A stretch of 64,000 nt of DNA, taken from contig OX387186.1 in the NCBI GenBank assembly GCA_947561395.2, forward strand, positions 48,131,220 through 48,195,219. Reading direction: 5' to 3'. The number at the start of each line of letters is the position of its first letter. The first letter of the stretch is position 1. Position numbers and translations under genes: made by a program. Shown piece by piece: positions 17,023-39,434 of this stretch. This stretch comes from Buxus sempervirens (lineage: Eukaryota > Streptophyta > Magnoliopsida > Buxales > Buxaceae). The notes below the pieces were generated by a model. It was given only the letters and a program-made list of their open reading frames with translations, was not told the DNA's origin and made no database searches.

Positions 17023-17189
17023 GCTAGTTTTGCTCAAAATTAGGGTTTTCCGAGAGTTTTCACATTTTACCATCATGTCCTTCATTAAATAAAGGGAAAT
17101 CTCGGAAATAGCCATAGGGTTAAGGATGGTGGGCTATAGACATTATGTTGTGTCTACCATTCTCACCAACCCTAACCCTAGCCTTTGCC

Positions 17190-17197
17190 TATAAATA
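17190..17197 (+). promoter_or_regulatory. TATA box of element B 5' LTR
   Basis: TATAAATA in the context GCCTATAAATAGGAGG, kept in the 3' LTR (37,571-37,578) and in the LTR of A. Transcription would start roughly 30 bp further on. Confidence 0.7.
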
Positions 17198-19110
17198 GGA
17201 GGCTCCTCCTTAAGCAAATGGCCATTAACTCTTGTTTTGAATTCTCGCCAAGAAGAACTCCAAGAGAAGAAGAAAACCGCTGCGGGATCGCATCCAGAAC
17301 CCAGGTAAGCCTCAAACTTTTCTTTTATTTTCTGTTTTAACATTCCTAGATCTAGATCTCTTCTTCTACCTTTCTGTAGAATAAGGCCTTCTTTGTGTGT
17401 GAAAATCCTTCCCCGGCTCAAAGTATCTCAAGACTCCCCCTAGCCGTAAAACGTGGAGGCGGGATCTAGGAGAAACGAGACTGGGGATTGACCCTAGTAC
17501 TAGAACCTATGTAGCATAAAGCCTTTTGATTGATTGTAAACCGTTTCATATTCAAAGTACCCTTGATTATCTTGAAGAACCGTGTTTAACGGGGAGAGAG
17601 AACAGAGGAAAACAATAATGGAATGGAACCCTAGGCTGTTTAGAACCATATTTTGATGAATATGTATGCATGCTATTGATCTTGTTTGGCTTTTCACACT
17701 TGCACATACATATCACTATTTTGGCGGGATAGGCTCACATTTGGGGATTTATTACATTCATTGTGATAAATCTCAAATAAATGGCCTCAATCAATTCTGG
17801 AATGTCTTTGGATGATTTTGAAAGGTTTTGTGTTCATCTTGCACGAATTGCACATACTTTGTCACATTTTTGCATTGTTTTTCTCCAAAAAGGGTTTAGC
17901 TTGACAGCACCTGTACCCTTATTTCGGACACTCATAACTTCATCGTCCGGATGAATTTTGGAGCGATTCTAGAACCATGGGAAAGGTGAGGCTGTCTAGT
18001 TTATGTCCACAAAATTTCATTAATTTCTATCAAACGGATTTTTGACACCTCTCTGTCGAAGTTGATTGGACAGTTCAGGTTTAAATATGGAACTTGTCAC
18101 TTCGACGGAGCGCCATGTGTTCGTTTTAAATCCGATTCGAGTGATTTTTGTTTCTGGGTACTCCTTTATGAGTCTATTTTTAAATCCAGTTGGTTTCATA
18201 ATTGTTTGACTCCGTTTGAATTATTGGTAACAGATTTTCTTAGAGCTGCTCATTAGTACTTTTCTGGGCAAATCTGTGATCTTCGGGGCCTGTTCGGGAG
18301 ACCACCCAAGGCACATCCGAATGAGTTTTTGTATGAGGCTAGTTTCTTTTGAACTATGGCCATACAAACTTCAATCACACCAAATTTCGTGGGTTTTTAT
18401 GGAGTGGATTTTTCTAGGTGATTTTCCAAAGTTGCCTACTTGTTGCTTTTAATCATCCCCAGCAGCAACTTTAAAGGAGCATAACTCCTAGGATTTCAAC
18501 CGGATTGACTTGAAATTTTGCATGAGTCCCTTATTTACTAAGATCTTTCAAATGGATTTGGTTTGGTTCAATTTAAAATTGGATTTGAATTATTTCAAGA
18601 CAAATGGCACTACTTTTTACCAAATTTCTCGGATTTGCCTCAACTTGGTTTTGTGCAACTTTTGCTATGATTTCCATCTTTTTGTGATATTCCAGAAGTG
18701 ATATTGACATAAGAGAAGATATAAAATCCATTTGGATCTTCATGTGAATATATCATACACTTGTTCCTTTTTTAAGGCTTTTCATGATTTTTTAGCAAGC
18801 TTCCTATTTTCTTTTAGCATGAACAAACACTTGGCAACCACCTTGTGTGGGTGAATGGAGGTGCCTAACACCTTCCCCCGTTCATAATCTAATCCCCTTA
18901 CCCTTCTCTGGATTTGATTTTCAAGTAGGGTTATTTTTACCCTAGAATTTGCCTTTTAGCACTTTTTTGCTATTTTTGCTTATTTTAATTCTTTTGGTGT
19001 CCATTCACACCCCAAAATTCTGAATGGTGGTGACTCTCCCATTTTTTGCGTCGATCCCCATGTGTTGACGGAGGGATGATCATTCCGGTGATTTTTCCAT
19101 GTCTCACAAC

Positions 19111-19129
19111 TGACGACTCTGCTGGGGAC
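19111..19129 (+). promoter_or_regulatory. Primer binding site of element B
   Basis: TGACGACTCTGCTGGGGAC, two bases after the LTR end; tRNA-Arg type, with two differences from the site in element A. Confidence 0.82.
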
Positions 19130-20177
19130 TTGTGGATTTAAGCCATTTTGTGTATTTGTTCATGCTTTTTTATTTATATTGAATGCTTGCTATTTTAATT
19201 TTTTTATTTGTGCATGTTGTTGTATTCTAAATCTTATTGGGATGCTTTTAAATTCTACATTGATAAAGGCATGTGTATATGGTTGGATTATGCTTAGGAT
19301 TATGTTTAGGGCCTTACCTTGTTGTGCATGCCTACTTGTTTTTTTCCTACCTTGTTTTAGGAGGTTTTTAGTGCCATGTTTTGAGCATGAGAATAAAGTG
19401 CAAAAATCCAATAGCTCAATGTATATTTTTGGGGTTCCCAAGCATGTTTTCCCCCAATTCAAACCTTTCTTGTGCCATATTTTAGGTATTAAATTTCTAG
19501 GCTTTGATTTGGGTATGAATGAAGCATGTTGAGTACCAAAGATGAAGAATACAAAATCTGAAAATTCAGTAGATATTTTGGGCTTCTTCAAGCATGTTTT
19601 CCTCAACAAAACACCTCTTGTACAATACATTTAGGTGCTATATCTTTAGGCTTGGGTTTGGGCATAAAACAATGTCACTTGAAAAAAAAAATGAAGAACA
19701 AAAAATCTGGAAATTTCAGTGTATATTTTTGGGGTTTTCAAGCAAGTTTCAACCATCAAAACCTTTCTTATATCATGTCAAGTAGTTGCTAAAATTTTTA
19801 GGCTTCAACTTGGGTAGAAATGGTACACTTTGAGCATGAAAAAGAGCATGAAAATCTGGAATTTTAGGGAATGCTTTTGGGTTTCAAGCATGCTTCCATG
19901 GTTTAATTGTTGTTTGCGCCAAATAACATGTTTGTATACCACCTTTTGGGCATGTAATATTTTTTGCATATTTGGTTGCTTTGGTTCTCTTGCTTGCTTG
20001 TATTTAGCTTCATTATATTGTCATATGTGCCTTGGCTTGAAATTGAATGCATGGCTACGAAAAAGAGTGGCAAGGGGCTGGGACATTGTGAATGTTACCA
20101 CAATTTTAAATTGCACTTGAGCACAATAAACACTTTGCACAACCTACCCTTTCACCTATAGGAAGTTGAACCATGAA

Positions 20178-20300
20178 TGTGTGTAGCTTGGCGCACCGAG
20201 GTCGTGACTTCGGAAAGCAAAAGTGAAAACATTTACCTTAGAATTTGAGTCAATGATGTTATGACAATGAGATCTGTGATTCGATTCCGGGCATCACTAG
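20178..20300 (+). repeat. tRNA-like or SINE-like patch in the leader
   Basis: TAGCTTGGCGCACCGAGG resembles a Pol III A box, and GTGATTCGATTCCGGGCATC, about 90 bp further on, resembles a B box (consensus GGTTCGANTCC). The same patch is in the leader of A (12,884-13,010, reversed), so it predates the split of the two copies. It may be an old tRNA-derived SINE or chance. Confidence 0.3.
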
Positions 20301-20651
20301 ACTTGAATTCTAAGTTACCAATTAAGCCAAAACCCAAAAACCATACGCTTGAAGGTGGAGGAACACGTTTTCAGCTAAAAGTACACAATTGCGTTTGGGG
20401 AATTGGGTGTAAATGTGGGAAGGCCGTTTGCATGTTCTACAGGCCAAGGTACACTATGAATGCCATATTGAAGGTAATACAAGGTGGCAAGGTAAACCCA
20501 TTTTCTTTTCATGAATTTCGGGATTCTGCAAGTATGATGTCCAAGCCCAATTTGGGGCAAGTTTTGAAGGTCAAATTAAGGTGAACATCAAGTGGGAATG
20601 AAAAAAAACCTAATCTGGTGAAAAAATGAGTCAAAAATGGCCATTTCGGCA

Positions 20652-20794
20652 TTAACCAGTAACTCAGGCCTGTTAAGAACAATTATCTTCATATCCGGTA
20701 CATATTACCGGATACAAAGGATTATGCGGTATCCAGTCATTGTTGCCGGATACAATAAGACATATCCTTATCCGGTATTTAATACCGGATATAT
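20652..20794. repeat. Palindrome cluster 4 (element B leader), 4 units
   Basis: Three clear units (such as TATCCGGTATTTAATACCGGATA) and one degraded unit at 20,652-20,676. It is the counterpart of cluster 1 in element A. Confidence 0.85.
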
Positions 20795-21089
20795 GCAGAA
20801 AATGCATAAATTGGCTTTTTCAGCCCGAATTTTCAAACTTAAGATGCCTAAACACTGTGGATAATCCTTAGGCACCCCAAAGAAAATATAAAAATGTTTC
20901 AAAAAAAATAATATAAAAAAAATAAATAAAAAATATATTCTTGTAAGATTAAACATAATGTTGAAATTCAAAGAGCAAGCTAAGGTGTCATATTTTTTAA
21001 TATCAACTCAATTCAAACATGTGTCAGTCAAACTTTTGAACTTGAAAACTGAGAAAATTCAGCAAATTTGAAAAAAAAAAAAAAAAAGA

Positions 21090-21850
21090 AACCTTTGGTT
21101 GGTTATTTTTATCAATCAAATCAAAACATTTGTGGGACACTTGGAAGCCCTAAAAAATTCCAAGAAACCTTTGGTTGGTTATTTCTATCAATCAAATCAA
21201 AACATTTGTCGGACACTTGGAAGCCCTAGAAAATTCCAAGAAACCTTTGGTTGGTTATTTTTATCAATCAAATCAAAACATTTGTGGGACACTTGGAAGC
21301 CTTAGAATATTCCAAGAAACCTTTGGTTAGTTATTTTTATCAATCAAATCAAAACATTTGTGGGACACTTGGAAGCCCTAGAATATTCCAAGAAACCTTT
21401 GGTTGGTTATTTTTATCAATCAAATCAAAACATTTGTGGGACACTTGGAAGCCCTAGAATATTCCAAGAAACCTTTGGTTGGTTATTTTTATCAATCAAA
21501 TCAAAACATTTGTGGGACACTTGGAAGCCCTAGAATATTCCAAGAAACCTTTGGTTGGTTATTTTTATCAATCAAATCAAAACATGTGTGGGACACTTGG
21601 AAGCCCTAGAATATTCCATGAAAACCTTTGGTTGGTTATTTTTATCAATCAAATCAAAACATGTGTGGGACGCTTGGAAGCCCTAGAATATTCCATGAAA
21701 ACCTTGGTTGGTTATTTTTATCAATCAAATCAAAAAAAATGGGACCTTTGGAAGCCCTAAAATGTTCCATAAAAACCCTTGGTTGGTCCTTTTCGTACCA
21801 ATCAAATCAAAAATCTGCGGGACCCTTGGAAGCCCTAAAATATTCCAACA
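21090..21850. repeat. 76-bp tandem repeat, about 10 copies (element B leader)
   Basis: Head-to-tail units beginning near 21,090, 21,166, 21,242, 21,318, 21,394, 21,470, 21,546, 21,622, 21,698 and 21,774. The inner copies are almost identical and the last three drift. Three units (228 bp) make a whole number of codons, so overlapping open frames arise in all + frames; these are by-products of the repeat. Confidence 0.95.
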
Positions 21851-22049
21851 CACCAAAAAATAAAAAAAAATAAACAAAAACAAAAAAGAGAACAAATAAA
21901 TCCGGACTTGTGTTCACTTAAACCATTTATCTACATTTATAGGTGTATGACTCAGATTAAATGGGAGCTGACATGTTTCTTTGCTTTTCCTGATCCAGGT
22001 ACAATTATTTGCAACCATTGCTCCCGTAACCAGATCTAAAGCCAGAGCC

Positions 22050-24232
22050 ATGAACACTGAAGAGAACCAAGCCCAAGCTACTGTCCCCGCTCAAGACTTT
22101 GCTCAGCTGCAGGAGCAAGTGGCTGGTCTGGCCAAGATGCTGGGAGACTTACTGGCGACTCAGGCCCAACAGGCCCAGGCCCAAAATCAAGCGTCAACTT
22201 CTCATCAGGCACCACCACCGCAGGCCTACATGCCGCCTCCGGCTCAACCCATGCCTGAGCCCATTTCTGAACCAGTCCCTGAACCCATTCTGATCAGGGA
22301 AAATACAGCAGAATCAGAGAAAGAGTTGGAGAAAGAAAAGGCCAGAGAAGAAATGGAAAAGAAAATTCTGCTCAGAATAAAAAGGATCTAGGAAGAGCTA
22401 AAGGAAGTGAAGGCAGGAAGCAGCCATGGAGGCACCACCTTCGAGGATCTGTGCATGTACCCTGATGTATGTCTACCGGCCAAGTTCAAGTGCCCGGACT
22501 TCGACAAGTTCGATGGCACAGGCTACCCCATGAGCCATTTAAAATACCCCATGAGCCATTTAAAATTATACTTCGGGGCCCTATGCCAATTTGGCCAGGA
22601 TGACGGCATATTAATCCAACTCTTCCAGAGTAATTTGACCGGGTCAGCTCTTAGGTGGTTTGCTACAGTGGACCATGGAAGGATCAGGAGATGGAAGGAT
22701 TTAGCTAATGCTTTCCTAGACCAATATAAATTCAACTAGGAGATCGTGCCAGACCGGTACGACATGATGAGGATGAGTAAAGGGAAAGATGAGCCGGTAC
22801 GACAGTACGCCAAGAGGTGGAGAGAGGCCGCCTCCCAGGTCAGACCACCTATGCAAGAACCGGAGATGATCTCCACGTTTATGGGCACACTGGGGCAACC
22901 CTTCTACAACCATCTGGTGGGTCAAATTACCACCACCTTTGCAGCCCTGGTGCAGGTGGCAAACCGGATCGAGGAAGGGTTCAGGTCAGGTAGGCTGATA
23001 GACTACTCTACTCTGACTGGGCAGTCTGATTCCTCTGCATCCATGGCCCAGAAGAAGGGAACCGGGTTCAAGAAGACAGGGGCCTGAAAAGAATGAGAAG
23101 TGAATCTGGTCCAGGCTCCTCCAGCCAAAAAACCGCTCAATGTAAACATCTCGGCACCCCAGCAGGCCCAGCACTCTTATCAGACCCCACACAATGTCAA
23201 TTTCTCTCCCTCCGTGCCAGCTAACCCACGGAGGACTTTTTCCAAGAAAGAGAGGGAGGCCTGGTTCGCAGCAAGAAAGAACCGAGTCTTTACTCCCCTT
23301 CCGGTATCTCTTTCCCAATTATTGCCAACCCTGCTGAAAGGGGAATATGTGACCTTGAAGGAACCAAGCCCGAATGCCACTAAGGGGAGGAATTTTGATC
23401 CGGCAGTCACCTGTGACTTCCACATGGGTGCACCGGGGCACTCTACAGATGCTTGTTGGGTGTTGAAGCATGCAGTCCAGGACTTGTTGGACCAGAAGGC
23501 CTTGGTTTTTAACACTGCTGCACCCGCACCGTCCGGGAATAATATTGGGCAGAACCCTCTGCCTTACCACAATGGGGTAGACCCATCCAACTCCATCACG
23601 GCCATATCCACCACGAGAAAGGCCTTTGACCCATCTCAGCTTATAGCACCCGTGGGGACCACAGTCCAGGTCCATTTCTTCCAAGAGGAGGAGGAAGAGG
23701 AGATCAACATGGTCTCCCAAAAAAATAATAATCCTGCTGCTGAGGACATAAGCTCCTCTTTAAACCGGGTCTCTTCACTCATGGCCCAAATGAATACTGC
23801 AAGGCCTCCATTGGTCTTCAATTGCAGTCCACCCACTTATTCCCCATCCAAGCCATCCAAAGCTCCATTGGTCATCAACCTTGACCCCACCATTGCTTCC
23901 ATCACTTCTTCTGTCCCCGCAAAATCCAAACTTCAACCCTTGGTTGTAAATGTATAGCCAGCCCAGACTATCCCTAAACCGGCCCATACATCCCGGTCCA
24001 AACTCCAGCCACTAGTGGTTAACATCCCTAAATTAGCCTACTCTGAGGCCGCTATACCATGGAATTACAGCGAGGGAATCACGGCTACGGTTCCAGTGGT
24101 TAGGAACCCGAACCAGGAGGAGGTTAACCTCATGATGAGGTCCGGGAGATGTGCAAGGGGTGAAGAGAAAGAAAAGGAGACAGAGGCAGAGAAAGAGAAA
24201 AAAGAAAATGAAGAAAAAAGAAAACAAAAATG
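22050..24232 (+). pseudogene. Element B gag region
   Basis: Starts MNTEENQAQA at 22,050. A Q/A-rich then P/E-rich N-terminus leads into the retrotransposon gag domain (22,510-22,930), a P/Q-rich linker, a zinc-knuckle-like CDFHMGAPGHSTDAC motif near 23,410, and a charged Glu/Lys-rich tail. It is closely related to gag of A (9,338-11,415). Broken fossil. Confidence 0.85.
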
Positions 24233-24242
24233 AAAAAACAAA

Positions 24243-25079
24243 GTGGGAGAAGACACCCCCCAGGGTGCAGAAAATGAGGCAGCCGACCTCATAAAAATCA
24301 TAAAAAAAAGTGAATTCAATCTTGTGGATCTGCTGAACAAGGTCCCGGCCCAGATTTCAATACTGGGCCTTTTGCTGAATTCCGAAAAGCACAGGGATGC
24401 ATTGTTAAGGGTGCTACAGAGTGCACACGTATCCCAGACCATTGATCCAGACCAGCTTGGTAAAATGATCGGTCCAATCTTATCACATAATGTGATAAGT
24501 TTCTCAGAGGGTGAGATCAGCCCAGGTGGGTGCTATCACGTTGACCCTTTGCACATCACAGTGCATTGTAAAGGCTGCATGATTGCACGGGTACTAATTG
24601 ACAACGGGTCGGCGTTAAACGTTTGCCCGTTAATCACTTTTACCAAGCTGGGTCTGGATCAGTCTAGGATCAAGCAGAATGGGAGAATAGTGAGGGTTTT
24701 TGATAGCTCCAAGACCCACTCCCTAGGGGAGATTGAACTGCCGGTCACAATCGGGCCGAATATCTTTAACATCACATTTGAGGTGATGGATATACCTGCA
24801 GCCTTCAATCTGCTCCTAGGAAAGCCGTGGATACATTCGGCTAGGGCAATACCATCCATGCTCCACCAAAGGGTGAAATATGTAAGAGGGCAAAGGGTGA
24901 TAACAGTCCTAGCCGAAAACTTGGTACCTCCTATAGTGTCACCTGATGTACCCCTAATCAATGTGGACTTGACTGTCGACAAGATTGCGTTTCACTCATT
25001 TCAGTTCGAGACGGTCAATTACATACCTGGGGGTGCGAGAAAGAAAAAAGAAATGGGACCACTACTGAGAAAATGGTGA
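24243..25079 (+). pseudogene. Element B protease region
   Basis: Retropepsin-like domain with the active-site block LIDNGSALNV and the LLGKPWIH block, as in element A. In Ogre elements protease and RT are known to be separated by an intron or frame change; whether that applies here cannot be told from the sequence. Confidence 0.8.
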
Positions 25080-25930
25080 AGAAAGTGATGGAAAAATACC
25101 ACTTTCACCCGGGGAAAGGCCTGGGAATCAATTTGCAGGGAATGGTGGAGCCAATCACGGCTAAGAAACTGATCCCCAAAGTAGGGTTGGGCTTCAAGCC
25201 CAGAGGTTGGAGGAGAATAAAGCATGAGGAAGGAGAGAGCAAAAGCAAAGGAAAGATCCCGCATCTGAGGGTGAATTTTCCAAGATCCTCCTATACAATC
25301 CAACTGTCTCCTCCTATGGACCAGTCAAAACCTCCTTACCACAACATCAATCCATTTCAAAAGCCTTTTGTTTCGGCCTTGCAACCCTATAACCCATCTC
25401 CAATACTGGGAGCAGTGGATGGGCCTGAGCCACAACCAGAGCAGCCGACAGACTTCTCTGAAGATGTGGAGGCTTTCTTCGCCATTGGTGAAGGCGAGAA
25501 AACTGGTAGTGACAACGAGCTACCATTCATTGACTGGGCTGCAGTAAAGATTCCGGATGAGGTTATATCTGGACTGGGCCCCGTAGCAGAAAAGGGCAGT
25601 ACCCACCCGGTGATGATGGCATCGGACGCGGGGCTTGAGGAGCAGGCTTTCCCTATTTCCCCTGCTCCCCAAAATTTTATGTTAAACAATTGGGAGGAAA
25701 CTCCCCTTACCTTTGAAGCAGCGTTTGTTCGGCAAACTAACGCAGCTTCCAAAAAAAAAACTCCAATAGTGGATTGCCATTTCCCTGAAGGTTCTAATGG
25801 GCCTTCGTCTTCAGGGGAATTATGTTTAGAAGGCTCACAAAAAACCCAAAAAGATTTTTCTATTTTTTCTAAAAAATTTAATTTTTTCAAAAAGGTCCAA
25901 CCACTTATGAACCATATAATCAGACCGAAT
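25073..25930 (+). pseudogene. Element B G-patch-like segment and linker
   Basis: Begins with a G-patch-like motif (HPGKGLGINLQG) in the first 30 residues, followed by a Pro-rich and then acidic linker (FSEDVEAFFAIGEGE) that leads to the RT region. G-patch domains bind RNA or RNA helicases in host and retroviral proteins; the role here is not known. Confidence 0.6.
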
Positions 25931-28000
25931 TGGACCAGGTTGAATATGACTTCGACCTTGAGCTCGACTTTGACCTCATGGGGATCAAAGAAGAGATCGA
26001 GGTCGAAGGAGAAGACGTTCCAAAAGAAATTGAATACCAATTGGAACGTCATGAAAAGGGGGTCCAACCTAATATTGAGGAGACCATATCCATAAATCTT
26101 GGGACCGAAGAGGACCCAAAAATTGTGAAAATCGGATCATGCTTGTCTAATGTGCAGAAAAATGGAATGTCACAGTTCTTGGCAGACTACAAAGATGTGT
26201 TAGCCTGGTCATACAGGGACATGCTGGGGTTGGACACGGACATGGTGGTGCATAAGTTGCCAATTTTGCCAGGGGTTAAGCCAATTAAGCAGAAGCTGCG
26301 AAGATTGAAACTAGAATGGACCTTGAAGGTCAAAGACGAAGTGGTCAAACAATTTCAAGCAGGATTTTTGGCAGTCTCTACGTATCCGGAGTGGCTAAGG
26401 ACGATTTTCCGCTTCCACACATTGACATTCTGGTCGATAATACTGCGGTTCATAGCTTGTTCTCGTTCATGGATGGTTTCTCAGGATATAATCAGATCAA
26501 GATGGCTAAGGAAGATCAAGAAAAAACAGCATTTATCACACCTTGGGGCACATTCCACTATACAGTCATGCCGTTTGGGCTTAAAAACGCTGGGGCAACA
26601 TACCAGCGGCCCATGACTGCACTATTCCATGACATGATCCACAAGGAGATGGAGGTCTATGTGGACGATATGATTGCCAAATCATGCAAAGAGGAGGACC
26701 ACTTGATCAACCTGAAGAAAGTGTTTGATCGGCTCAGGAAGTACAGTCTACGGCTTAACCCGGCTAAGTGCGTCTTTGGGGCTACATCAGGGAAGTTACT
26801 GGGATTTATTTTGAGCCGAAGAGGAATTGAAATTGACCCGGCTAAAGCCAAGGCCATAATTGAAATGCCAGCACCCAGAACCGAGAAGGAAGTTCGTGGT
26901 TTTCTCGGGAGGATTCAATACATAAGCCGGTTCATAGCACAGCTCACTGCTATCTGTGAACCAATTTTCAAGCTTCTGAGGAAAGACAACCCGACGGTCT
27001 GGAATGAGGATTGCCAGCAGGCCTTTGATACGATCAAGGAATATTTGCTGAACTCACCTGTGCTAGTACCACCAACTCCAAGAAGACCACTGATCCTGTA
27101 CTTGTCAGTGTTGGAAACATCGATGGGATGTGTCTTGGGGCAGCATGATGAGACTGGTAGAAAAGAAAGGATCATTTACTATCTGAGTAAAAAATTCACA
27201 GAATATGAAGCTAAATACTCACCATTGGAGAAGACTTGTTGTGCTCTAGTGTGGGCAACTCAGAGGCTAAGGCATTACTTCCTTAGTCACTCCACACTAT
27301 TGATATCCCGGATGGACCCGCTGAAGTATTTATTTGAGAAACCGGCACTGACTGGCAGGACGGCAAAATGGCAACTACTACTGTCCGAATTTGACCTCAC
27401 GTACATAACCGAGAAGGCGATCAAGGGTCAAGCCATAGCTGATCACCTGGCTGCACATCCTCTGCCAAAATATCAACCCTTGAAGACCAATTTTCCCGAT
27501 GAGGCAATCTTATACACTGAGGAGGACAGTGAGAGTTCTTGGTAGATGTTCTTTGATGGGGCCGCCAACATGAATGGAAATGGAATAGGGGCAGTCTTGG
27601 TCAAACCAGATGGTTCACATATCCCGATTGCAGTAAAGCTGAGATTCCAGTGCACCAATAACATAGCAGCATATGAAGCATGCATCATTGGATTGCAAGC
27701 CACCCTGGATCATGGGGTAGAGGAACTTGACGTATACGGGGATTCGAGTCTTATCATCTTCCAAACAACTGGTGAGTGGAAAACCAAGGATCACAAATTG
27801 ATCCCCTATCACCAGTACTTGGAAGAAATAAGCACAAATTTCACTCGAATTTCCTTCAACTATATGCCAAGAGCCAAGAATCAGTTTGCGGATGCTCTAG
27901 CTATATTGGCTTCAATGGTCAGCATACCAGAAGGAGTAGACATCAGACCACTGGAAATTGAGGTCAGAGATGAACCGGCTTACTGTCTCGTTCTAGAGGG
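25930..28000 (+). pseudogene. Element B reverse transcriptase and dual RNase H region
   Basis: RT core with the YVDD box near 26,656, Ty3-type RNase H near 27,100-27,340 (KKFTEYEAKYSPLEK), then the second, archaeal-type RNase H from 27,546 (FFDGAANMNGNGIG). It matches the 853-codon block of element A. Broken fossil. Confidence 0.87.
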
Positions 28001-28239
28001 AGCACCAGAAGAAGAAACACCATGGTTTCAAGATATCAAAATTTTCTTGAACAATCATAGTCTGCCAGAAAATGCCACTGCTACTGAGAAGAGGACAATA
28101 CAGAGATTGGCTGGTCAATTTCTGCTAAGTGGTGGACAGTTGTACAAGAGGTCACATAGCGATATTCTGCTCAGAGGTGTAGCCAAGGCTGAATCGGAAA
28201 GATTGATTGAAATTGTAAATGGAGGAGTTTGTGGGCCCC

Positions 28240-29270
28240 ACATGAGCGGGCACATGTTGGCAAAGAAGATCTTAAGGCTGGGATACTACTGGACAACCAT
28301 GGAACATGATTGCTGTATACATGTCAGGAGGTGCCACCAATGCCAAATATATGCAGATAACAAGCATGCACCCCCGGGTGAGTTGCACAACATGACATCA
28401 CCATGGCCCTTCTCTATGTGAGGCATAAATGTCATCGGCATGATTTCACCTAAAGCATCGAACGGGCACAGATTTATCCTGGTGGCGATTGATTACTTCA
28501 CTAAATGGGTAGAAGCAGCTTCATATGTGAACATCACAAGCAACCATGTTATTAAATTTTTGAAGCACAATATCATTTGTCGCTATGGACTGCCAAGTGC
28601 CATAGTATCAGACAATGCTTCAAACATTAAGAATAAGGACATGAAGAAGATGTGTGAGCAGTTTCAGATCACCCACCATAAATCAGCTCCGTACAGGCCT
28701 AAGATGAATGGGGCAGTGGAAGCAGCAAACAAGAACATAAAGAAAATCATTCAGAAGATGGTAGTGAGCTACAAGGATTGGCATGAAATGCTGCCACTTG
28801 CTCTACATGCCTACAGAACCTCGATCCGAACCTCAACTGGGGCAACCCCGTATTCCCTAGTCTATGGAATGGAAGTAGTCTTGCCAGTGGAAGTAGAAAT
28901 CCCATCACTTAGAGTGCTCATGGAGGCAGAATTGGAAGAAGCTGAATGGATACAGTCAAGACATGATCAACTCAACCTGATAGAAGAAAAGCGGTTGAAA
29001 GCGCTTTGTCATGGACAGTTGTACCAGAGGAGAATGGCCCGGGCCTACAATAAGAAAGTAAGGCCCAGAACTTTCCAAGAAGGAAACCTAGTTCTAAAGA
29101 AAATTCTACCATTTTTGGAAGACCCTCGTGGTAAGTTCAAGCCCAATTGGGAAGGGCCTTATGTCGTCAAGAAGGTCCTGTCAGGGGGTGCACTCATCTT
29201 AGCAGAAATGGATGGGTCAGATTTTCCTGAGCCAATTAACTCCGATGCAGTAAAAAGGTATTTTCCTTGA
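28240..29270 (+). pseudogene. Element B integrase region
   Basis: H2C2 zinc finger (CIHVRRCHQC near 28,315), DDE core (DYFTKWVEA, SDNASN, PYRPKMNGAVE) and C-terminal domain ending ...DAVKRYFP. No chromodomain was recognised, as expected for the Tat lineage. Confidence 0.87.
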
Positions 29271-30218
29271 GTGAATATTACTAGGAAATGATCCGAGGCC
29301 ATTTCTTTTTATTCCTTTTAAAATTTTAATCCCTAGTCTAGCCAAGTTGAGCCGGTTCGTTTCTATGATAAACCTAAACCGGATTTACAGTCTTATATTG
29401 GGGCAAAACAAATTGGGGCAAAGCCAATTGGGGCAGAGTTGAAAAAAAAAAGAGAAAAAAAGCAATGAAAAGGGCAAATGAAAGCCAAATGTAAAAAAAG
29501 ATGCAAAAAATGCAATTTGGGGGAAAATGGTGAAATTCATTATGACTATAAGTCTGGTTGACCCTATTTCCACATTTGAAAATGTTTGGGCCTTTAATAC
29601 CCTTTCTTTCATAAACCAAACCTAGCCTTTGTTTCGTCCTATTTTTAAGCCCTCGGTGATCTTAGTTTGTTCATTCAAATGTCAGAGTAAGATTAGTGAT
29701 GACGGAATACAGAACCCGGCCCTAGTGAAAACCGTAACTGGCGCTAGGGGCAATATTGGCAAGAAAAAGAAAAAAACAAAAATATATATATAAAAGAAAA
29801 ATCAGAGGTTGAGTTGATCATGGAAATCTGAGATTGAAGCAAAATCGGCATGAGCAGAATGGGGTCAGTTTTGGCATTTGGGGATGACTCTAAAGGTCCT
29901 AAAATGGACGGTTCTGATCCCTCATTATTTTCTGGACTACCCTTTTCATTATTTAACTTGGTTCTAATTCCTTTAATTATAGGTGATTAAGTGCATGGAC
30001 CAAATTTCAAAAAATAAAAAAAATATAAAAAGAAAAAAACTATACTTTGGCCAGTGATGATAAATCAAATACTTTTCATAAAACCTTTGTTTTTACAAGC
30101 ATCTGAGCATTCTGAGGCCAACAATATAAAAATTTTATTTTGAATTAAGTCCTTTGTCTTTCCACTATTGGAGTTTGCTTTTGTACAAAGGTAGGAAAAA
30201 AATGTGTAGGAAATAAAG
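29271..30218 (+). other. Element B 3' non-coding segment
   Basis: Lies between integrase and the antisense units. It contains a short repeat of TTGGGGCAAA-type words (29,398-29,440) and A-rich stretches (29,760-29,800, 30,005-30,035). The same sequence forms the left edge of element A (1-725, reversed). No gene seen. Confidence 0.7.
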
Positions 30219-32030
30219 CTAATCTCTGTCTCCTAGCCGCTCCCGAATCCGAGCTGCTTGAGCTGCGATAACTCCAGAAGCCCCCTCTGCAGCGGGATCA
30301 CTCAAGAAGGAAATGACCTCATCTGAAAGAGTCTGCCTAATCCGCATGCTCCTAAGGTCGGCTAAAGCATCCTGGTGCTTCTGCCTCAGTGCTCGGACTT
30401 CAAGACAGCGGGCCTGCCTATGTTCCTCAAGTTGCTTCTCCATAGCCAGACGGCGAGATACCTGCTCTGCAAGTTGCCTTTCCATGTCAAGGTCCCGTAT
30501 CCTAAGCTCTTGGGCCTCTCGTACCCATATCTGCTGAAGTCGCTTGTGAGAAGCTCTCTCAGACTCTAAAATATCCTCATAAGTAGGAGCCAAGACTGCA
30601 GGAGGATCTTCGGGTACTGGTGCCTGACTCTGTATCTGCTCCTGGATCCAGAAGAGATAATCCTTCACATGGGCTTCTGAGAAGACGGGGCCACGCATGA
30701 AGCGAACATAGGACCACTCCCTCATCAACCAGGCATTCAGCTTCATGGTATCTGGAGAAAGGGGCCCAAGATGATCGTCATACCCACTTGGGATGATAAT
30801 CCCTTGGATCGCTCTGAACTGACGAAGGACCCGCAAAGGAAGGTAAAGCACTGCATGTCTCAGGCCAGCCAGAACCAGAAAGTTGCAGTCTCGGAAGCTA
30901 ATCACGGTCTCTGCATTGGGTTGATAGGTACCAGGCCACCTCACATGATCATCCTGGAGTGAACCCAAGAAAGTAAACCAACCCTGTTTACCCCCTGGAA
31001 TGTCAGGACACCCTCGGTTGCTCATCAAGATGGGGACTTTCAAGCTCGGGAAGAAGTGTCGATTGATTTCCTCAATCTGACTCAAATGATCAAGTAGCCA
31101 AAGCTGCAAAGGAAGAGAGATATATCAGCACATTGTAAAAGAAAAAAAAAGCAAAAAGAAAGAAAAAAAAGCAAAAAGAAAGAAAAAAAAAGCAAAAAGA
31201 AAGCAAGAAAGCAAAACAACAAAAAAAAAAAAAAATATAATTTTTTTTACCTGCAGGAGCTGGGCACATGCTAAGAAGCGTTTCGACTTCCTATTGTAGC
31301 AATCAGTCAAGGCCTGATACATCCCAACCAAAATCATAGGGGCCAACCTCTCCTACTCCCTAACCTAGCATATCACTGAAATCAGGGCCAAGTCCACCTC
31401 GTCATCATCTCGTGGGAAAAGTAGCTGGTTGACCACTATCAGGGTCAAGGCGTTGAACCGGGCTTCCTTATTCTCCCCCCTAAAGAGCTTCTCAGTCAAA
31501 AAAGCCTTAGATAAAGTCAAAAGGGTGTCAGAGTCTCCTAAGTCCTTCTTCCCTATGCCCAAGAATGTAGAAGCTTCTTTCTTGTAACTGGGCCTAAGAG
31601 GTGGATTCACTACCTTCTCTGCAAACCTCAAACCAAAGATAGTTTCCACCTCTTCTATGGTCGGGGTCATCTCATGGTTCCCAAAACGGAACAAGTTGAG
31701 GTCGGGAACCCAGTGACCAATCATGGCCTCTATAATCTCCCACTTGAAGGGAACCTTGGGAATGATCAGGGTATGGCCTAGATTAGTAGAATCCCATCTC
31801 CTTTCCTCATCTAGGGTCATAGAGTTAACCCATCTTGTGTAAAAGGAATCCACAGGGTTGTACCTAGTGAGATTTGGGGGTTTTGATCTGAAAGGTTGTT
31901 TTGCAGGGGAGGCAGTATGGACAGACAATAATGGGGCAAAAGATGATCCGGAATCCATTGGAGTGGATGGAAGCAAGCTAGAACTCAAGAGGAAGAAGAA
32001 AAAGGCGAAAAAGGGGGTTTCTAAACTCAA
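30219..32030 (-). pseudogene. Antisense unit a of element B, PMD-related
   Basis: Two coding-like stretches on the strand opposite to gag-pol: 31,365-32,030 (Ser/Pro-rich start, then blocks WVNSMTLDEERRW and TIEEVETIFGLRF) and 30,219-31,109 (QLWLLDHLSQIEEIN, then a long Gln/Arg/Glu-rich coiled coil), separated by a low-complexity, intron-like stretch. The blocks resemble the plant mobile domain (PMD) and related families found in MULE-type transposons and in host proteins such as MAIN. Extra antisense ORFs are a known trait of the Tat lineage. A TATA box lies about 40 bp upstream. It belongs to a fossil element; its role is not known. Confidence 0.65.
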
Positions 32031-32069
32031 AAACTCGTAAAAAAATGCTCAAATCCCGAGGCTGGTTGC

Positions 32070-32079
32070 ATTTATAGTA
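32070..32079 (-). promoter_or_regulatory. TATA box of antisense unit a
   Basis: ACTATAAATG on the minus strand, about 40 bp before the first ATG of unit a (32,030) and directly downstream of palindrome cluster 5. Confidence 0.55.
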
Positions 32080-32088
32080 TCTTTTAAT

Positions 32089-32230
32089 GTATCCGGTAAC
32101 TCAGACCGGATAAACAAGGTTTTATTCATATCCGGTATACTTAACCGGATACAAAGGAGGCCATGAGTATCCGGTATATTATACCGGATACAAAGAACAA
32201 TCAATGTATCCGGTATATCAGACCGGATAC
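32089..32230. repeat. Palindrome cluster 5 (upstream of antisense unit a), 4 units
   Basis: Four near-perfect units, such as GTATCCGGTATATTATACCGGATAC, about 35-45 bp apart. It sits 10-160 bp upstream of the TATA box of unit a. Confidence 0.9.
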
Positions 32231-32439
32231 AAAGAAAAACAGCAAAAAAAAGAGCAAAGGATGGAAATCCGAATTTTTTACCTGTTTTACCTGTGTACAA
32301 GTCATAATTGCATAAAATTAAGAACAAAAGAAGTGCAAGACAAGAGAGAATGAATAAAAAGTTTTCTTTCATATATAAATGCAAGTCTTTTTGTACAAAG
32401 GATGATGGTATAAATACAAAAAAAAAATCCTAATCTACT

Positions 32440-35187
32440 ACTCCTGTGCAGGATCATCCCCGCATCCTCGACCGCGTCCACCTCTATGGCCTCTACCTCG
32501 AAGCGCTCGACCCCTAGAGTAGGCCAGAATGCGCTCGGCTGCATGACGAGGATGCCGACCCACCACCTGCTGGAGCTGATACTCCAAGCAATACTCCTCG
32601 AGGTCTGGGGGCAGAGCAGGAGCAGAATCTGGGGAGGAAGCCTCTGGCTTAGCAGCAACCGGCCCAACTGGGCCCTCAGCCATAGCAGGCTCTGCTCCCG
32701 CAGCTCCAAAAGGCCCGGCAGCAGGAGAATGGCCAGGAGCAGAAACATCTGGATCAACAAAAAAAAATCAGAAATGAAAGCATCAGAATGAACCAAAGAG
32801 GGAAAAATTAAAGAAAACATACCAGGGATATTTACAGCAGGCACTGGGGGATCCGGATCCACTGGGTCAGCAGCAGGGACCTCCTTCAGCTCAGGAACCA
32901 TCACTGAAGATGAAGGAGCAGCTGGGGCAACACCAGGATCAGCAACTGGGACGTCCATAGGATCAGTAGCCCGAGCGGGAGACGGGTCAGGAATGAGGAA
33001 ATCATGCTCAAAGGCAGCACCATGATCCGGGACCGGGCCTTACAAAAGTCAAACTGGTATATCAGAATAGCAGAATAGCAGAATAGCAGAAACATGAAAG
33101 AGATGAAATTACAAGAAAACCATATACCTGTCTAGCCTGGAGCTCAGCAACCAGAGCCTCCAACTCTCTGATCCTAGCATCCCGCTGGGCCACGACCGCA
33201 TCGTGCTCGGCGATCATATCATCGATCACAGCCCGCTGGCTCTCGAACCGGTCCCGGATAGTATTCAGCTCATGTACTTGCCAACAAGAACAGAAGTAGG
33301 GTTAGAAATACATCAGGGAAGAAAAGATGAGGAGTACAAGACTTACCGTGTCCTCATGGATCCGGATACGGATCCCGCCGATCTCGGTCACCCCGGCATG
33401 AGTGGGTCGATCCATCAAGCACCCAATAGATACTCTCTGGAACCACTCGTCGTAATCCCTAGCGACCGTGAGCCCCTCCACATCCAGGAAATGATCGAAC
33501 TGATCCACATCAAAGCCCGGCAGGAGCATGTCGGGACCCACAGGAGGAGGAGGAACAGGGATACGAAGTGCACCGGTGTGCTGATGGTACAGGCGCTCTC
33601 CCAAGTACATCACCCTACCAAGGAAGCACTGGTAGGGCTAACGTCGCCGATCTCTATCAAAGGCGTCTTGTACTGCCATCTCACGGGCCACTCCGACGTC
33701 CACGTCATCAAATCGGGACAGGATGAGCTGCAAAAAAGAGAAATAGTCAGATGCAATCAAGATGCAAGAAAAGAAATAAAAGGAAAAAGGATAAAGGGTT
33801 TACATCAGGTTGGCGGGCACGGTCCAAGTGCACCCGAGCGGTGCGGGGCTGACTCCTATCAGCATCCCGGACCTGGGCCGACCATCGCAAAGCCTCAGGG
33901 AAATCCGCGACCTCAGGTACCGGGGATGGGCGGAAGAAAGTCATATAGGTGTACATAAACACCTAGCAAAAGAAAAGAATCAGTCAGAGATAAAGAAAAT
34001 AAAGCCTAAGGAATTAAACCAGACAGATGAATTCGATATCTGTAGAATCTGCCAGAAGAACCGGCTGCTGACTCCATCACCTCTCGGGGATGCCAGGCCT
34101 CGAACCGCTCGGCACAACCCAGCTAGGATGGTCCCATAGATGAGTCGACCCCATGCTAGCTGGCGGGTCTGATGGAAATCTCTCAAGGCGTCCAAAAAGA
34201 GCGGACTGACGCTGGTCGTATCCTCCGGAAAGAAGCAGCTCCCAAGCATCAACAGGAAAACATGCCGGAAGATAGGTGCAAAGGCTGCATCCTCCACAGA
34301 GACGGTCGCATGTCTCCCCTCATAATGTCGAGCTAGGCTCTTCCGCAGCCAACTGATAGAGAGGCGACCACTCCGCCCATCCCAAGCAGCATGAGGCAGG
34401 TCCTGATACCCCAGAAGGAGGCCGATGTCCTCCGTAGAAGGTCGCTCCAAGACAATGGTCCGCCCCGTCAAGGGAATACCGGTGATCATCACAAAATCTG
34501 AGAGACAGATCCCTAGCTCCACGTCCGGAAGATGGAATGACTGCGTCTCTGGGAAATATCTCTCCATCATGGCGAAGATGAGTGGACGGTCGGCTCTGAA
34601 GGATGGGATGCTAAGGAAATGATCCAAATGGCACCTCCCAAACTCGCGCCTGAGGGCCAGAGAAAGTGACTTGGCCAACTCACTGAATCTCCCCCAACTG
34701 CCTCGTAAATGGGAGGAGTGATACGGAAGAGGCACATCTGCCCTGATGCACATGGAAGGGTGGATATCCAAGCCACGGAGGAGCTCTGTATCATGCACAG
34801 ATGCCCTCAACTCCTCGGAGACCCCTGACAGAGCTACAGCAGTACCATCCTGAGCCGCACCTCTGGCTCTGCCTTGGCCTTTGCCACGGCCTCCCTCTGC
34901 CTCAGGGGCTTGATCCTGAACTCTGCCTCGGCCTCGGCCTCGACCTAAAGCAGGTGCAACCACGGGCTAAATTTCAAAGGAACAGTGTGAAGATTTGTGT
35001 AGAAAGGAGAATAGAAAAAAGAAAAGAGAGAAAGAACTTGAAAGCCTACCTCAGCAGAGCTCTCTCGGGAGTCGCCTAATGGCTCGGACAAGGTGGCACT
35101 AGAACTCACCTCTGTCCGAGCCTGCGAGGTGGAGGGCTGATTAGTAGGGTCAACCTCCTCTCTAACACAGGAACGACTCCTAGCCAT
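32440..35187 (-). pseudogene. Antisense unit b of element B, PMD-like
   Basis: A series of coding-like stretches on the minus strand, separated by short gaps that have GT and AG at their edges. In order: a Ser-rich N-terminus (from 35,187), an RG-rich patch and PMD-like core (about 34,965-34,050; blocks HLPDVELGICLSDFVMITGIPLTG and LAWGRLIYGTILAGL), a segment near 33,960-33,805, one near 33,729-33,347, a coiled coil (33,283-33,128), a Pro/Asp-rich stretch (33,040-32,822) and an RG-rich tail (GRGHRGGRGRG, ending near 32,445). PMD proteins occur in MULE transposons and as host silencing-related proteins. The unit is part of a fossil and is broken. Confidence 0.65.
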
Positions 35188-36500
35188 CTACACAGGGAAG
35201 TGTTTTGTGAATTTTAATTCAAATTTTCCTTGCTTATGATCTATACTTCAGTCTCATCATAAATTGTGTCTTACTTCTATTCTCTGAGTCAATGCAAAGT
35301 GTTCTGATCCTAAAACCCCTTTAATATTTCCTAGTTTGTGGTGAATTTAGGATATATGCAAAGGGGAAGAATAAAAGCAAAATCAAGGCAAGAGTGACAG
35401 ACAGAGCTACAAATTCAAGAGTTGACAAGGCAAGTCATAAAGTCAATCGGAAGAATTCACAACCGGGTAGGGTGATGAGTTTGAGAATCATGCCAGTAGT
35501 AATCAACAATTCCAGGGGGAAATATCACTGGCAGATCAATCCTAAAGAACTGCAAAGAATCGGATCAAGGTTGGGAGGTCCAAGCCAATTATAGAAAAAA
35601 AAAAGAAAAAAATCGAGCATCCAATTAGCAGTTCCATAAGTACCATCGGCAGGCAGTCCTAAGTTCTTGGACACTATCAATTCAAGGATTGCACAAGCCA
35701 CAGTTATATAGGCAGCTCCAAAAAGTGGCAAGATAAAATTGAAAGTCAAAGAAAATTTCAGAAAAACAGAAAAAATCACATGGCATTAAGTCTGAAAATT
35801 CTATCATCGGCTATATGGGAAATCATGCCAGGAGCAATGCAGTTGTGAATTAGCACTGGCAAGTAATCCAAACAAGTTGCAGGGATTATCAGAAATGCAA
35901 AAATCTAGTTCTTAATTGAGAGGTCAAACACAGCAAAAAGAAAAGTTGTCACTTACCAATGTGGTTTGCCCGGAGAAATGGATTGCCGGTTAACAATGAC
36001 CAAATCCAATCAACAATAACCCAGGCAAATCATAGAATAGTGTGTAAGACAAAATCAAACAAAGACATACTTGGAAATGGCAAATTCGGTGAAGCTATGC
36101 AAAAAAAAAAAAAAAAACACACATGCTTGACTGAATCGGATTCTACTCACTGGTTAAGCGGCAATGAAGTACTAGGTTACAAGAAGATAAGTTGGGCAGG
36201 TGAAGAACAATTCACCGGAACTCAGAGAAGATCACCGGAGCAAGGACAATGGCGTCGGGTTGAGAAAACCACCAAGAATCTGAAGAAATCGAGCTAGGGC
36301 TTGACCACGGCCAAGAATGGGCGACAATGGAAGTCGCCGAAGTCACAGGCCGTTGCCGGCAGCAACAGAGGACGCCGGAGCTGCTGGATATCGCCGGAAA
36401 AGAAGGAAGAGCCGTCGGGGACGAAGGAGAAGGGAGATGTCCGGTTTGAGTAATCGAAGCAGGAAGAAAAGAATGGGAACAGTCGCGGTCGCGCGCGACT
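35188..36500 (-). other. Probable 5' leader of antisense unit b
   Basis: No gene on either strand. Read on the minus strand, 36,480-36,200 is rich in TCTTC/CCGGCG words like a plant 5' UTR, and the rest is AT-rich, intron-like sequence. A TATAAG box lies at its upstream edge. Confidence 0.4.
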
Positions 36501-36504
36501 TATA
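36499..36504 (-). promoter_or_regulatory. TATA-like box of antisense unit b
   Basis: TATAAG on the minus strand inside GGCTTTATAAGTCGCG, about 10 bp downstream of palindrome cluster 6. The same hexamer region also gives TATAAA on the + strand, so direction is uncertain. Confidence 0.4.
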
Positions 36505-36513
36505 AAGCCGTGT

Positions 36514-36577
36514 GTATCCGGTAACTCAGGCCGGATACACACGAGCCCTGCCTTATCCGGTATGTAATACCGGATAC
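36514..36577. repeat. Palindrome cluster 6 (upstream of antisense unit b), 2 units
   Basis: GTATCCGGTAACTCAGGCCGGATAC and TATCCGGTATGTAATACCGGATA-type units beside the TATA-like box. Confidence 0.85.
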
Positions 36578-36581
36578 AAAA

Positions 36582-36812
36582 GAAAAAAGAAAAAAAAAAG
36601 AAAAAAAGAGAAAAAGAAATGGAAAAAGGAAAAAAGAAAAGAAAAAAAAAGAAGGAAAAAGAGAAAAAAAAAGAAAAAAAAAGAGAAAAAGAAATGGAAA
36701 AAGGAAAAAAGAAAAGGAAAAAAAAGAAGAAAAAAGAGAAAAAAAAAAGGAAAAGAAAAAAAAAGAAAAAAGAAGAAAAAAAGAAAAAGAAAGAAGAACA
36801 AGAGCAAAAATG
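36582..36812. repeat. Purine-only low-complexity tract
   Basis: About 230 bases made almost only of A and G (GAAAAAG-type words with occasional ATGG). It gives long Lys/Glu frames on + and Phe/Ser frames on -, none of which is a gene. Confidence 0.9.
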
Positions 36813-37196
36813 TGCTACAAATTCCACTATTTTCTCACAAAATCCTATTTTTGCCTTAAAATCCACCTCACAGCCACGAGAGCTCAGCGGAATTTAGGAC
36901 AACCTTGGGAAATGTGCTGGTCAAAAGGATGATATCCACTAAATTTTAACTTGGTTTGATAAAAAATCAGTTTTCAAAAATCCTATTTTTGGGCTTAAAA
37001 TCCACTTCACAGCCACGAGAGCTCAGTGGAATTTAAGAACTCTTAGAGGGATGCCCCCCGTAAAGTTAGCGCTTTTTGGCAAATCTCCACACAAAAATTG
37101 CTTTTTACAAAATTGAATTAAATCAAGCAAATCATGCTTAAGGGAGTGCAATTTGGGCTTGTCTAATCTTTGCAGCTCACTGCTTCGCAGCTCCCG
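36813..37196. other. Element B sequence before the purine tract, no gene
   Basis: Holds a diverged direct duplication: CTTAAAATCCACYTCACAGCCACGAGAGCTCAG at about 36,854 and 36,994 (period near 140 bp). Nothing else seen. Confidence 0.6.
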
Positions 37197-37210
37197 CAAA
37201 GAGGGGCAGT
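37197..37210 (+). promoter_or_regulatory. Polypurine tract of element B
   Basis: CAAAGAGGGGCAGT directly before the 3' LTR; the expected position and composition of a plus-strand primer. Confidence 0.7.
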
Positions 37211-39429
37211 TGTAGACACCCCAAATTGCACAAACAACCATCAAAAATCATTATCTCCTTAAAAGCCAGCACAGAAATTGAAGAAAATGAATTTTTACTT
37301 GTATCCGGTGACAAATACCGGATACAAGCAATCCTTAGTATATCCGGTATTATATACCGGATACATTAAGACCCTTGTGTATTCGGCCGGACATGCCGGA
37401 TACGCTAGTTTTGCTCAAAATTAGGGTTTTCCGAGAGTTTTCATATTTTACCATCATGTCCTTCATTAAATAAAGGGAAATCTCGGAAATAGCCTTAGGG
37501 TTAAGGATGGTGGGCTATAGACATTATGTTGTGTCTACCATTCTCACCAACCCTAACCCTAGCCTTTGCTTATAAATAGGAGGCTCCTCCTTAAGCAAAT
37601 GGCCATTAACTTTTGTTTTGAATTCTCGCCAAGAAGAACTCCAAGAGAAGAAGAAAACCACTGCGGGATCGCATCCAGAACCCAGGTAAGCCTCAAACTT
37701 TTCTTTCATTTTCTGTTTTTACATTCCTAGATCTAGATCTCTTCTTCTACCTTTCTGTAGAATAAGGCCTTCTTTGTGTGTGAAAATCCTTCCCCGGCTT
37801 AAAGTATCTCGAGACTCCCCCTAGCCGTAAAACGTGGAGGCGGGATCTAGGAGAAACGAGACTGGGGATTGACCCTAGTACTAGAACCTATGTAGCATAA
37901 AGCCTTTTGATTGATTGTAAACCGTTTCATATTCAAAGTACCCTTGATTATCTTGAAGAACCGTGTTTAACGGGGAGAGAGAACAGAGGAAAACAATAAT
38001 GGAATGGAACCCTAGGCTGTTTAGAACCATATTTTGATGAATATGTATGCATGCTATTGATCTTGTTTGGCTTTTCACACTTGCACATACATATCACTAT
38101 TTTGGCAGGATAGGCTCACATTTGGGGATTTATTACATTCATTGTGATAAATCTCAAATAAATGGCCTCAATCAATTCTGGAATATCTTTGGATGATTTT
38201 TAAAGGTTTTGTGTTCATCTTGCATGAATTGCACACACTTTGTCACATTTTTGCATTGTTTTTCTCCAAAAAGGGCTTAGCTTGACAGCACCTGTACCCT
38301 TACTTTGGACGCTCATAACTTCATCGTCCGGATGAATTTTGGAGCGATCCTATAACCATGGGAAAGGTGAGGCTGTTTAGTTTATGTCCACCAAATTTCA
38401 TTAATTTCTATCGAACGGATTTTTGACACCTCTCTGTCGAAGTTTATTGGACAGTTCAGGTTTAAATACGGAACTTGTCACTCCTTTATGAGTCTATTTT
38501 TAAATCCAGTTGGTTTCATAATTTTTTGACTCCGTTTGAATTATTGGTAACAGATTTGCTTAGAGCTGCTCATTAGTACTTTTCTGGGCAAATCTGTGAT
38601 CTTCGGGGCCTGTTCGGGAGACCACCCAAGGCACATCCGAATGAGTTTTTGTATGAGGCTAGTTTCTTTTGAACTATGGCCATACAGACTTCAATCACAC
38701 CAAATTTCGTGGGTTTTTATGTAGTGGATTTTTCTAGGTGATTTTCCAAAGTTGCCTACTTGTTGCTTTTAATCATCCCCAGCAGCAACTTTAAAGGAGC
38801 ATAACTCCTAGGATTTCAACCGGATTGACTTGAAATTTTGCATGAGTCCCTTATTTACTAAGATCTTTCAAATGGATTTGGTTTGGTTCAATTTAAAATT
38901 GGATTTGAATGATTTCAAGACAAATGGCATTACTTTTTACCAAATTTATCGGATTTGCCTCAACTTGGTTTTGTGCAACTTTTGCTATGATTTCCATCTT
39001 TTTGTATTATTTCAGAAGTGATATTGACATAAGAGAAGATCTAAAATCCATTTGGATCTTCATGTGAATATATCATACACTTGTTCCTTTTTTAAGGCTT
39101 TTCATGATTTTTTAGCAAGCTTCCTATTTTCTTTTAGCATGAACAAACACTTGGCAACCACCTTGTGTGGGTGAATGGGGGTGCCTAACACCTTCCCCCG
39201 TTCATAATCTAATCCCCTTACTCTTCTCTGGATTTGATTTTCAAGTAGGGTTATTTTTACCCTAGAATTTGCCTTTTAGCACTTTTTTGCTATTTTTGCT
39301 TATTTTTAATTCTTTTGGTGTCCATTCACACCCCAAAATTCTGAATGGTGGCGACTCTCCCATTTTTTGCGTCGATCCCCGTGTGTTGACGGAGGGATGA
39401 TCATTCCGGTGATTTTTCCATGTCTCACA
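37211..39429 (+). mobile_element. Element B 3' LTR
   Basis: 2,219 bp, TGTAGACACC...TCTCACA, a little over 2% different from the 5' LTR. Contains palindrome cluster 7 and a TATA box (37,571-37,578). Confidence 0.93.
37301..37403. repeat. Palindrome cluster 7 (element B 3' LTR), 3 units
   Basis: LTR copy of cluster 3. The first and middle units are closer to a perfect palindrome here than in the 5' LTR. Confidence 0.88.
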
Positions 39430-39434
39430 GAAGA

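Follow-up and report, generated by a model that had tools for sequence, protein, structure and literature searches.

We found that a Tat/Ogre-like long terminal repeat (LTR) retrotransposon of Buxus sempervirens, here called element B, carries arrays of palindromic 25-bp dyads upstream of the TATA boxes of both its LTRs and directly upstream of the TATA-like boxes of two antisense units, and that the underlying half-site geometry, CCG-N11-CGG, stays constant in at least six retrotransposon families that spell their half-sites in four different ways. Element B lies in a stretch of 64,000 nt of contig OX387186.1, which we refer to as the window, together with a relative on the minus strand, element A, which is incomplete in the window and 84-91% alike to B. 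Judged from their sequence and placement, the arrays may serve as operators that a dimeric factor specific to each family recognises, and this factor may be the DUF7745/PMD protein that the element encodes; to this reading we give a probability of about 0.45.

Scanning the whole window with a 25-bp template located 24 dyads of the type GTATCCGGYA-N5-TRCCGGATAC in seven clusters (4+4+3+4+4+2+3; Table 1), and the seven palindrome clusters of about 24 units listed in an earlier note on this DNA were thus recovered at every place, in a sharper form than first described. The spacing of 35-45 bp given there narrowed to 39 bp in 16/17 within-cluster steps and 38 bp in the other, and the form it had proposed, with a single base between the arms, had to be abandoned, as this has no match in the genome and the 8-bp arms are in fact 9 nt apart. 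Template scores of 17-20 of 20 positions are reached by 22/24 units, and ten dinucleotide shuffles of the window, which set the chance level, yielded 116 sites at score 13, 13 at 14, one at 15 and none above. With scores of 14 and 13, the leader units at 12304 and 20652 are at chance level and were included for their exact 39-bp distance to their neighbours. The common form, CCG-N11-CGG, is present in its exact clustered form in 18 of the 24 units, the others having lost a base of it.

The association with promoters proposed in the same note also stood, since arrays lie upstream of the LTR TATA boxes of A (16131, minus strand) and of both B LTRs (17189 and 37570, plus strand), each at about 165-167 bp, as well as directly upstream of the boxes of both antisense units. 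A TATA box was looked for beside the two leader clusters of A and B and none was found. We assign B as Tat/Ogre-like by its domain order, length and antisense PMD open reading frames (ORFs): a domain scan gave reverse transcriptase (RT), RNase H, an additional RNase H (RVT_3) and integrase, in that order, and the element is very long, with antisense PMD-bearing ORFs between pol and the 3' LTR. Its LTRs (5' 16830-19108; 3' 37211-39429) are 97-98% identical in the LTR alignment and it is flanked by a 5-bp target duplication, GAAGA, at 16825-16829 and 39430-39434. The antisense ORFs 1 and 2 are called PMD1 and PMD2 below, and the array and TATA-like box near 36505 presumably belong to the PMD2 gene. 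A long purine-rich tract of A and G (window 36578-36800) directly adjoins the PMD2 array, and a 76-bp tandem repeat occupies the same position between leader and gag in both elements (four copies at 11618-11923 in A, ten at 21086-21848 in B).

Table 1. Element B, the dyad arrays of elements A and B, and the antisense genes with their TATA-like boxes (window coordinates)
Feature	Position	Strand	Detail	Basis
Element B	16830..39429	+	Tat/Ogre-like LTR retrotransposon, 22.6 kb	LTR alignment, ends, duplication, domains
Array, leader of A	12187..12328	-	4 dyads; paired arm change in last unit	template scan
Array, LTR of A	16297..16438	-	4 dyads; upstream of TATA 16131(-)	
Array, 5' LTR of B	16920..17022	+	3 dyads; upstream of TATA 17189	
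Array, leader of B	20652..20792	+	4 dyads; without adjoining TATA	
Array, antisense unit 1	32089..32230	-	4 dyads; upstream of the unit	
Array, antisense unit 2	36514..36577	-	2 dyads; upstream of the unit	
Array, 3' LTR of B	37301..37403	+	3 dyads; upstream of TATA 37570	
TATA box, antisense unit 1	32071..32077	-	CTATAAA, 12 bp from array	CTATAAA in 21/21 aligned copies
TATA-like box, antisense unit 2	36499..36505	-	weaker TTATAAG, 8-9 bp from array	
Antisense ORF 1 (PMD1)	31365..32048	-		DUF7745, 41.6 bits, above cut-off; PMD, 24.2 bits, below cut-off
Antisense ORF 2 (PMD2)	33980..34966	-		PMD, 59.2 bits, above cut-off

The arrays recur in B-family copies across the 676.5-Mb genome, in which GTATCCGG-N9-CCGGATAC has 20,444 matches and the same pattern read backward has none. 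A first look at the genome gave 5276 PMD1 candidates, and 137 of the best-scored 150, a set biased towards intact copies, lack a stop in the match. We sampled 20 of these stop-free copies from 14 contigs and found the array at the same place in all 20, with four units in 19 of them and three in one. When ten copies were fetched further upstream, seven had both the PMD2 and the LTR arrays; the remaining three comprise one with another element's array (L070) and two without this spelling, one of which (L073) has arrays of a second spelling and is probably a second copy of family D, described below. Leaders in five of five other copies have four units, the first of them changed on both arms (ATAACC..GGTTAA). 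Over 59 clusters with 220 units, one of these clusters belonging to family C, steps of 39 bp occurred 146 times, 38 bp ten times and 76-104 bp five times. The half-site TATCCGG is common to the LTR, leader, PMD1 and PMD2 arrays of B.

Comparison among copies points to constraint on the arms. Taking the mean frequency of non-majority bases per alignment column as a measure of variability, we compared arms with cores plus spacers in three alignments, and in each the difference was reached by 0/5000 column permutations. In 21 copies of the B PMD1 promoter the arms had a variability of 0.043, the cores 0.135 and the spacers 0.145 (60-bp flanks 0.070, TATA/leader stretch 0.052, first 100 bases of the gene stretch 0.030); eight promoters of family E gave 0.049, 0.143 and 0.200, with flanks at 0.123, and 16 B-type LTRs, element A included, gave 0.068, 0.197 and 0.211, with 0.089-0.098 outside the array. 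The arms are therefore 3-4 times less variable than cores and spacers throughout. Moreover, in the B PMD1 promoters CG sites were changed in 9/334 cases within arms versus 85/828 outside, and CHG sites in 8/334 versus 93/946, so that changes of both kinds are about four times rarer in arms. The claim that dyad symmetry is under selection is in this respect supported, the arms remaining fixed while cores and spacers drift. The further claim that the two arms change together held only in part: the paired change TTAACC..GGTTAA in a leader unit is real, and arm position 9 co-varies in 130 distinct units with scores of 16 or more (89 matches versus 73.2 expected, reached by 0/2000 permutations), but the other positions are hardly variable or uncorrelated, within a set whose threshold itself limits variation, and a general covariation beyond position 9 and a few whole-unit changes is unsupported. 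Unit 1 of the PMD1 array has its asymmetric core turned round in 6/21 copies (L047, L048, L049, L053, L056 and L060), with arms and flanks unchanged, and the orientation of the core therefore seems not to matter. Such an inversion resembles a flip through a hairpin or cruciform.

The earlier note had placed this module in one element, with one factor for its many promoters, and although our data support the latter notion, the module itself extends to at least six families. The nested LTR of another family in copy L070, with the same arrays, led to family C, located via LTR pairs, some of them about 18 kb apart. Family C has gag, RT, RNase H, RVT_3 and integrase, the same Tat/Ogre domain order as B, with an RT stretch of 70-72% DNA identity to A and B, an LTR array that ends 11 bp upstream of TATAAATAG, and a sense DUF7745/PMD ORF upstream of gag. 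Because the family was reached through its array, this gene counts as an independent hit. A genome search for DUF7745 gave 5751 candidates, of which 118 were scored, and sampling at 3 and then 12 places yielded families D (C-like, L089), E (PMD1-like, L091 and seven more), F (L090, L097) and G (L103). The half-sites are TATCCGG in B and C, with a period of 39, and with a period of 28 GCCCGTA in D and E, AACCGYA in F and GWCCGCA in G. In D and E the dyad is GCCCGTA-N7-TACGGGC (period at times 27), in F AACCGYA-N7-TRCGGTT with one larger step, and G retains five decayed GWCCGCA-N7-TGCGGWC units spaced exactly 28.

Arrays were present at 8/8 E promoters, which have their TATA position in common within about a base, and at 2/2 F promoters. 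Arrays lie 8-26 bp upstream of TATA-like boxes in the LTRs of C and D and at the B and E antisense promoters. GCCCGTA-type variants, the spelling of the E PMD1 promoters, occur in the E copy L104 both in the LTR and in the stretch upstream of it, and likewise in an E-like LTR in L009; for F, no LTR was found within the 2.4 kb fetched (L105). Of the 12 places sampled for DUF7745, 10 have one or more CCG-N11-CGG sites (just one in three of these), and the other two, which are of the sense ORF1 type with their LTR outside the stretch covered, have none. About 0.9-1.1 kb downstream, in the LTR region, C and D each bear another array (L087 1569-1710; L089 2791-2891), without a clear TATA box and comparable to the leader array of B. 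Nested in element A (window 1388-4774) is what is probably a solo LTR from a relative of family C, and in it 44-bp minisatellite repeats occupy the place of the palindrome array.

In the window and nine loci, which were selected after the arrays had been seen, clustered CCG-Nn-CGG gave 42 cases at n = 11 and at most 9 at any other n from 0 to 24. Genome-wide, CCG-N11-CGG-N11-CCG occurs 28,546 times forward and 28,631 times in reverse, versus 323 and 367 for the shifted-spacing control CCG-N10-CGG-N12-CCG and 2,450 and 2,651, and 2,475 and 2,444, for backward-read controls, which lack CG-poor triplets. Arrays with GCCCGTA spelled out in full number 4280 and 4222 and AACCGNA arrays 835 and 844, with controls at 0 in both cases, and the large remainder of CCG-N11-CGG arrays suggests further families. 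At 30 PF10536 loci (host MAIL-like and other PMD), scanned to 1.5 kb past the match, a margin that would miss arrays in distant LTRs, there was no clustered CCG-N11-CGG and no B-type unit above score 15, with one score-15 site common to four related loci; ten of the 30 were scanned for domains and match PMD, not DUF7745. A scan of other PMD loci for long strict dyads likewise gave no clusters. The idea that arrays are a trait of all PMD genes was rejected (0/30 loci within that margin).

The fixed sequence, dyad symmetry, period, proximity to TATA boxes and shared spelling lead us to propose a dimeric family-wide factor, and since one spelling is used across promoters in B and in E, the two families in which several promoters were read, a single factor could serve all of them. 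The DUF7745/PMD protein, whose gene is the additional one that all six families share, is the candidate. We infer that a factor may bind the arrays, that it may activate transcription or counteract silencing, and that it may be a DUF7745/PMD protein: a dimer with sequence specificity would sit on the regularly spaced CCG-N11-CGG dyads upstream of core promoters and could switch on the LTR and antisense genes together or shield them from silencing, and if it is the element's own product, the array before its own gene would be a feedback site. In a fuller version, DUF7745/PMD proteins would be dimeric family-specific regulators that recognise CCG-N11-CGG dyads, each governing the promoters of its family, that of the DUF7745/PMD gene among them, in a self-encoded regulon of the VANC type in LTR retrotransposons; the operators would have been exchanged between families, so that one element might live off another's activator; we hold this version tentatively and think it more doubtful than probable. 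What speaks for the operator reading is the position of the arrays, their fixed period, the constraint on the arms, the uniform spelling within B and within E, the differing spelling from family to family, the conserved geometry and the co-occurrence with DUF7745/PMD.

Several points weigh against it. The ORF1 proteins of C and D are 72% identical and their spellings differ, as do the spellings of B and E, whose proteins are 54-84% identical over short stretches; the B and C proteins are only 38% identical, yet spelling, period and core are common to these two families. Because D, E, F and G were reached by way of DUF7745, the test of co-occurrence ran in a single direction for these four. The arms are just 1.3-2.5 times less variable than the flanks, and part of the contrast within the arrays therefore comes from extra variation in cores and spacers. 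Single-sequence models of the two antisense ORFs had pLDDT values of 43.6 and 37.4, which is too low, and searches of solved structures gave nothing usable. We know of no DNA-binding fold in DUF7745/PMD. Among the PMD1-type families B, E, F and G spelling does follow protein differences, and it is for C-D and B-C that the correspondence breaks. Spellings that cut across DUF7745 kinship complicate a simple VANC-like code, and a strict one-to-one code between kinship and spelling is unsupported between ORF1-type and PMD1-type proteins. The likeness of B and C suggests that the arrays themselves have moved between families.

Plant LTR promoters are known to rely on host factors, and the arrays might instead be read by a host transcription factor family that dimerises on CCG-N11-CGG, with flank preferences of its paralogues giving the spellings and retrotransposon families picking or exchanging sites. 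This would account for the sharing of sites at least as well as an element-encoded protein, as {B,C} and {D,E} share sites whereas {C,D} and {B,E} have the closer proteins, and cores and period are common to C and B as if arrays had been exchanged. However, all array families examined encode DUF7745, though 4/6 were ascertained by it, PMD loci that are not DUF7745 lack arrays, and we know of no plant factor with this spacing, although no search was made for one; we consider a host factor possible, if somewhat doubtful. We think it improbable that the palindromes act as hairpins in RNA or single strands, as sources of small RNA or as packaging or dimer signals in genomic RNA. The palindromes of maize Sireviruses are small-RNA hotspots according to the accessible part of one report (PMC5311732), and the core inversions in 6/21 copies are what hairpin-mediated flips would yield, but the arm sequence itself is fixed beyond what pairing asks, arm changes in units scoring at least 16 lack a wobble-compatible bias (26 C to T, 20 G to A), and at several promoters the distance from the array to the TATA box downstream of it is fixed. 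Neutral tandem repeats homogenised by slippage, conversion or palindrome correction are already disfavoured and seem very unlikely: tandem arrays are common in these elements and the core inversions make exchange evident, but homogenisation should span cores and spacers too, which vary 3-4 times more, and copies agree in the place of the array, its period and its distance to the TATA box.

Sireviruses have a comparable cis module, with CGG/CCG palindromes upstream of the LTR TATA box and of an env-like gene (Bousios 2010, PMC2829016, as far as its accessible text goes). The likeness consists in many palindromic boxes with a CGG-CCG core clustered before the LTR TATA box and again before an extra gene, and here too multi-copy CGG-CCG palindromes precede the LTR TATA box, and boxes precede the extra genes between pol and the 3' LTR (32089, 36514); in the same text a Citrus element's AATCCGGCTWRCCGGATT resembles the B arms. 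However, Sireviruses reside in Ty1/copia, whereas the RT-RNase H-integrase order of B is that of Ty3/gypsy; the half-site gap is shorter in the motifs listed there (N6 in Citrus); the extra gene is sense and env-like, here antisense PMD/DUF7745; and the accessible text describes no family-wise code with a fixed N11 and a 39/28-bp period. The earlier note knew of no such module in Tat elements, and the titles and starts of abstracts of the open-access papers that our searches turned up describe none in Tat/Ogre elements or with DUF7745, but it left unnamed the Sirevirus palindromes, which are the closest precedent; the N11 geometry and its diversification in Tat elements are apparently undescribed, not being found in our literature searches.

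A parallel for a family-specific factor is that of the anti-silencing VANC proteins, which bind short motifs forming family-specific tandem repeats in VANDAL elements (PMC5735166, accessible part). There, as here, short tandem motifs lie in non-coding parts and differ between related families, our dyads having four spellings in six families. VANDALs are however DNA transposons (MULE) that encode their binding protein and not LTR retrotransposons with DUF7745/PMD genes, the binder here is a candidate and no VANC gene is involved, and the VANC motifs YAGTATTAY and AGTTGTCC are not described as dyads in that part. PMD is present in 57% of the Ogre elements surveyed (PMC6317226), for maize Grande an antisense promoter of its own and a nuclear product were reported (PMC7264820), and the Retand antisense TRP28, predicted to bind DNA, has Transposase_28 in place of the PMD that likens the other antisense ORFs to ours (PMC11963269); operator arrays are not described in the accessible parts of these papers. 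The host PMD proteins MAIN and MAIL1 are, with PP7L, required for genes with a common promoter motif, and the accessible texts leave its direct recognition open (PMC7156037, PMC9899485). In the MORC1 promoter this DOWN motif reads CATGCAGTTT (PMC9899485, same limit), unlike our dyads, and host-like PMD loci L016-L020 lack arrays; a link to it was rejected on the difference in sequence.

The arrays supply a concrete candidate target for the PMD-type antisense genes of Ogre elements, and four spellings with matched protein families permit direct specificity swap tests. If the protein does bind, LTR retrotransposons would possess a sequence-specific regulator that they encode themselves, with consequences for the way in which giant elements evade silencing and for where the host PMD silencing genes come from. 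With the spacing rule, families of this kind can moreover be recognised simply in the genomes of other plants. Elsewhere in the window we noted, both on the minus strand, an ORF for a LINE-like reverse transcriptase (RVT_1, zf-RVT, RVT_3; 46703-50059) and one for a PIF1-type helicase, possibly of a Helitron (61547-63799).

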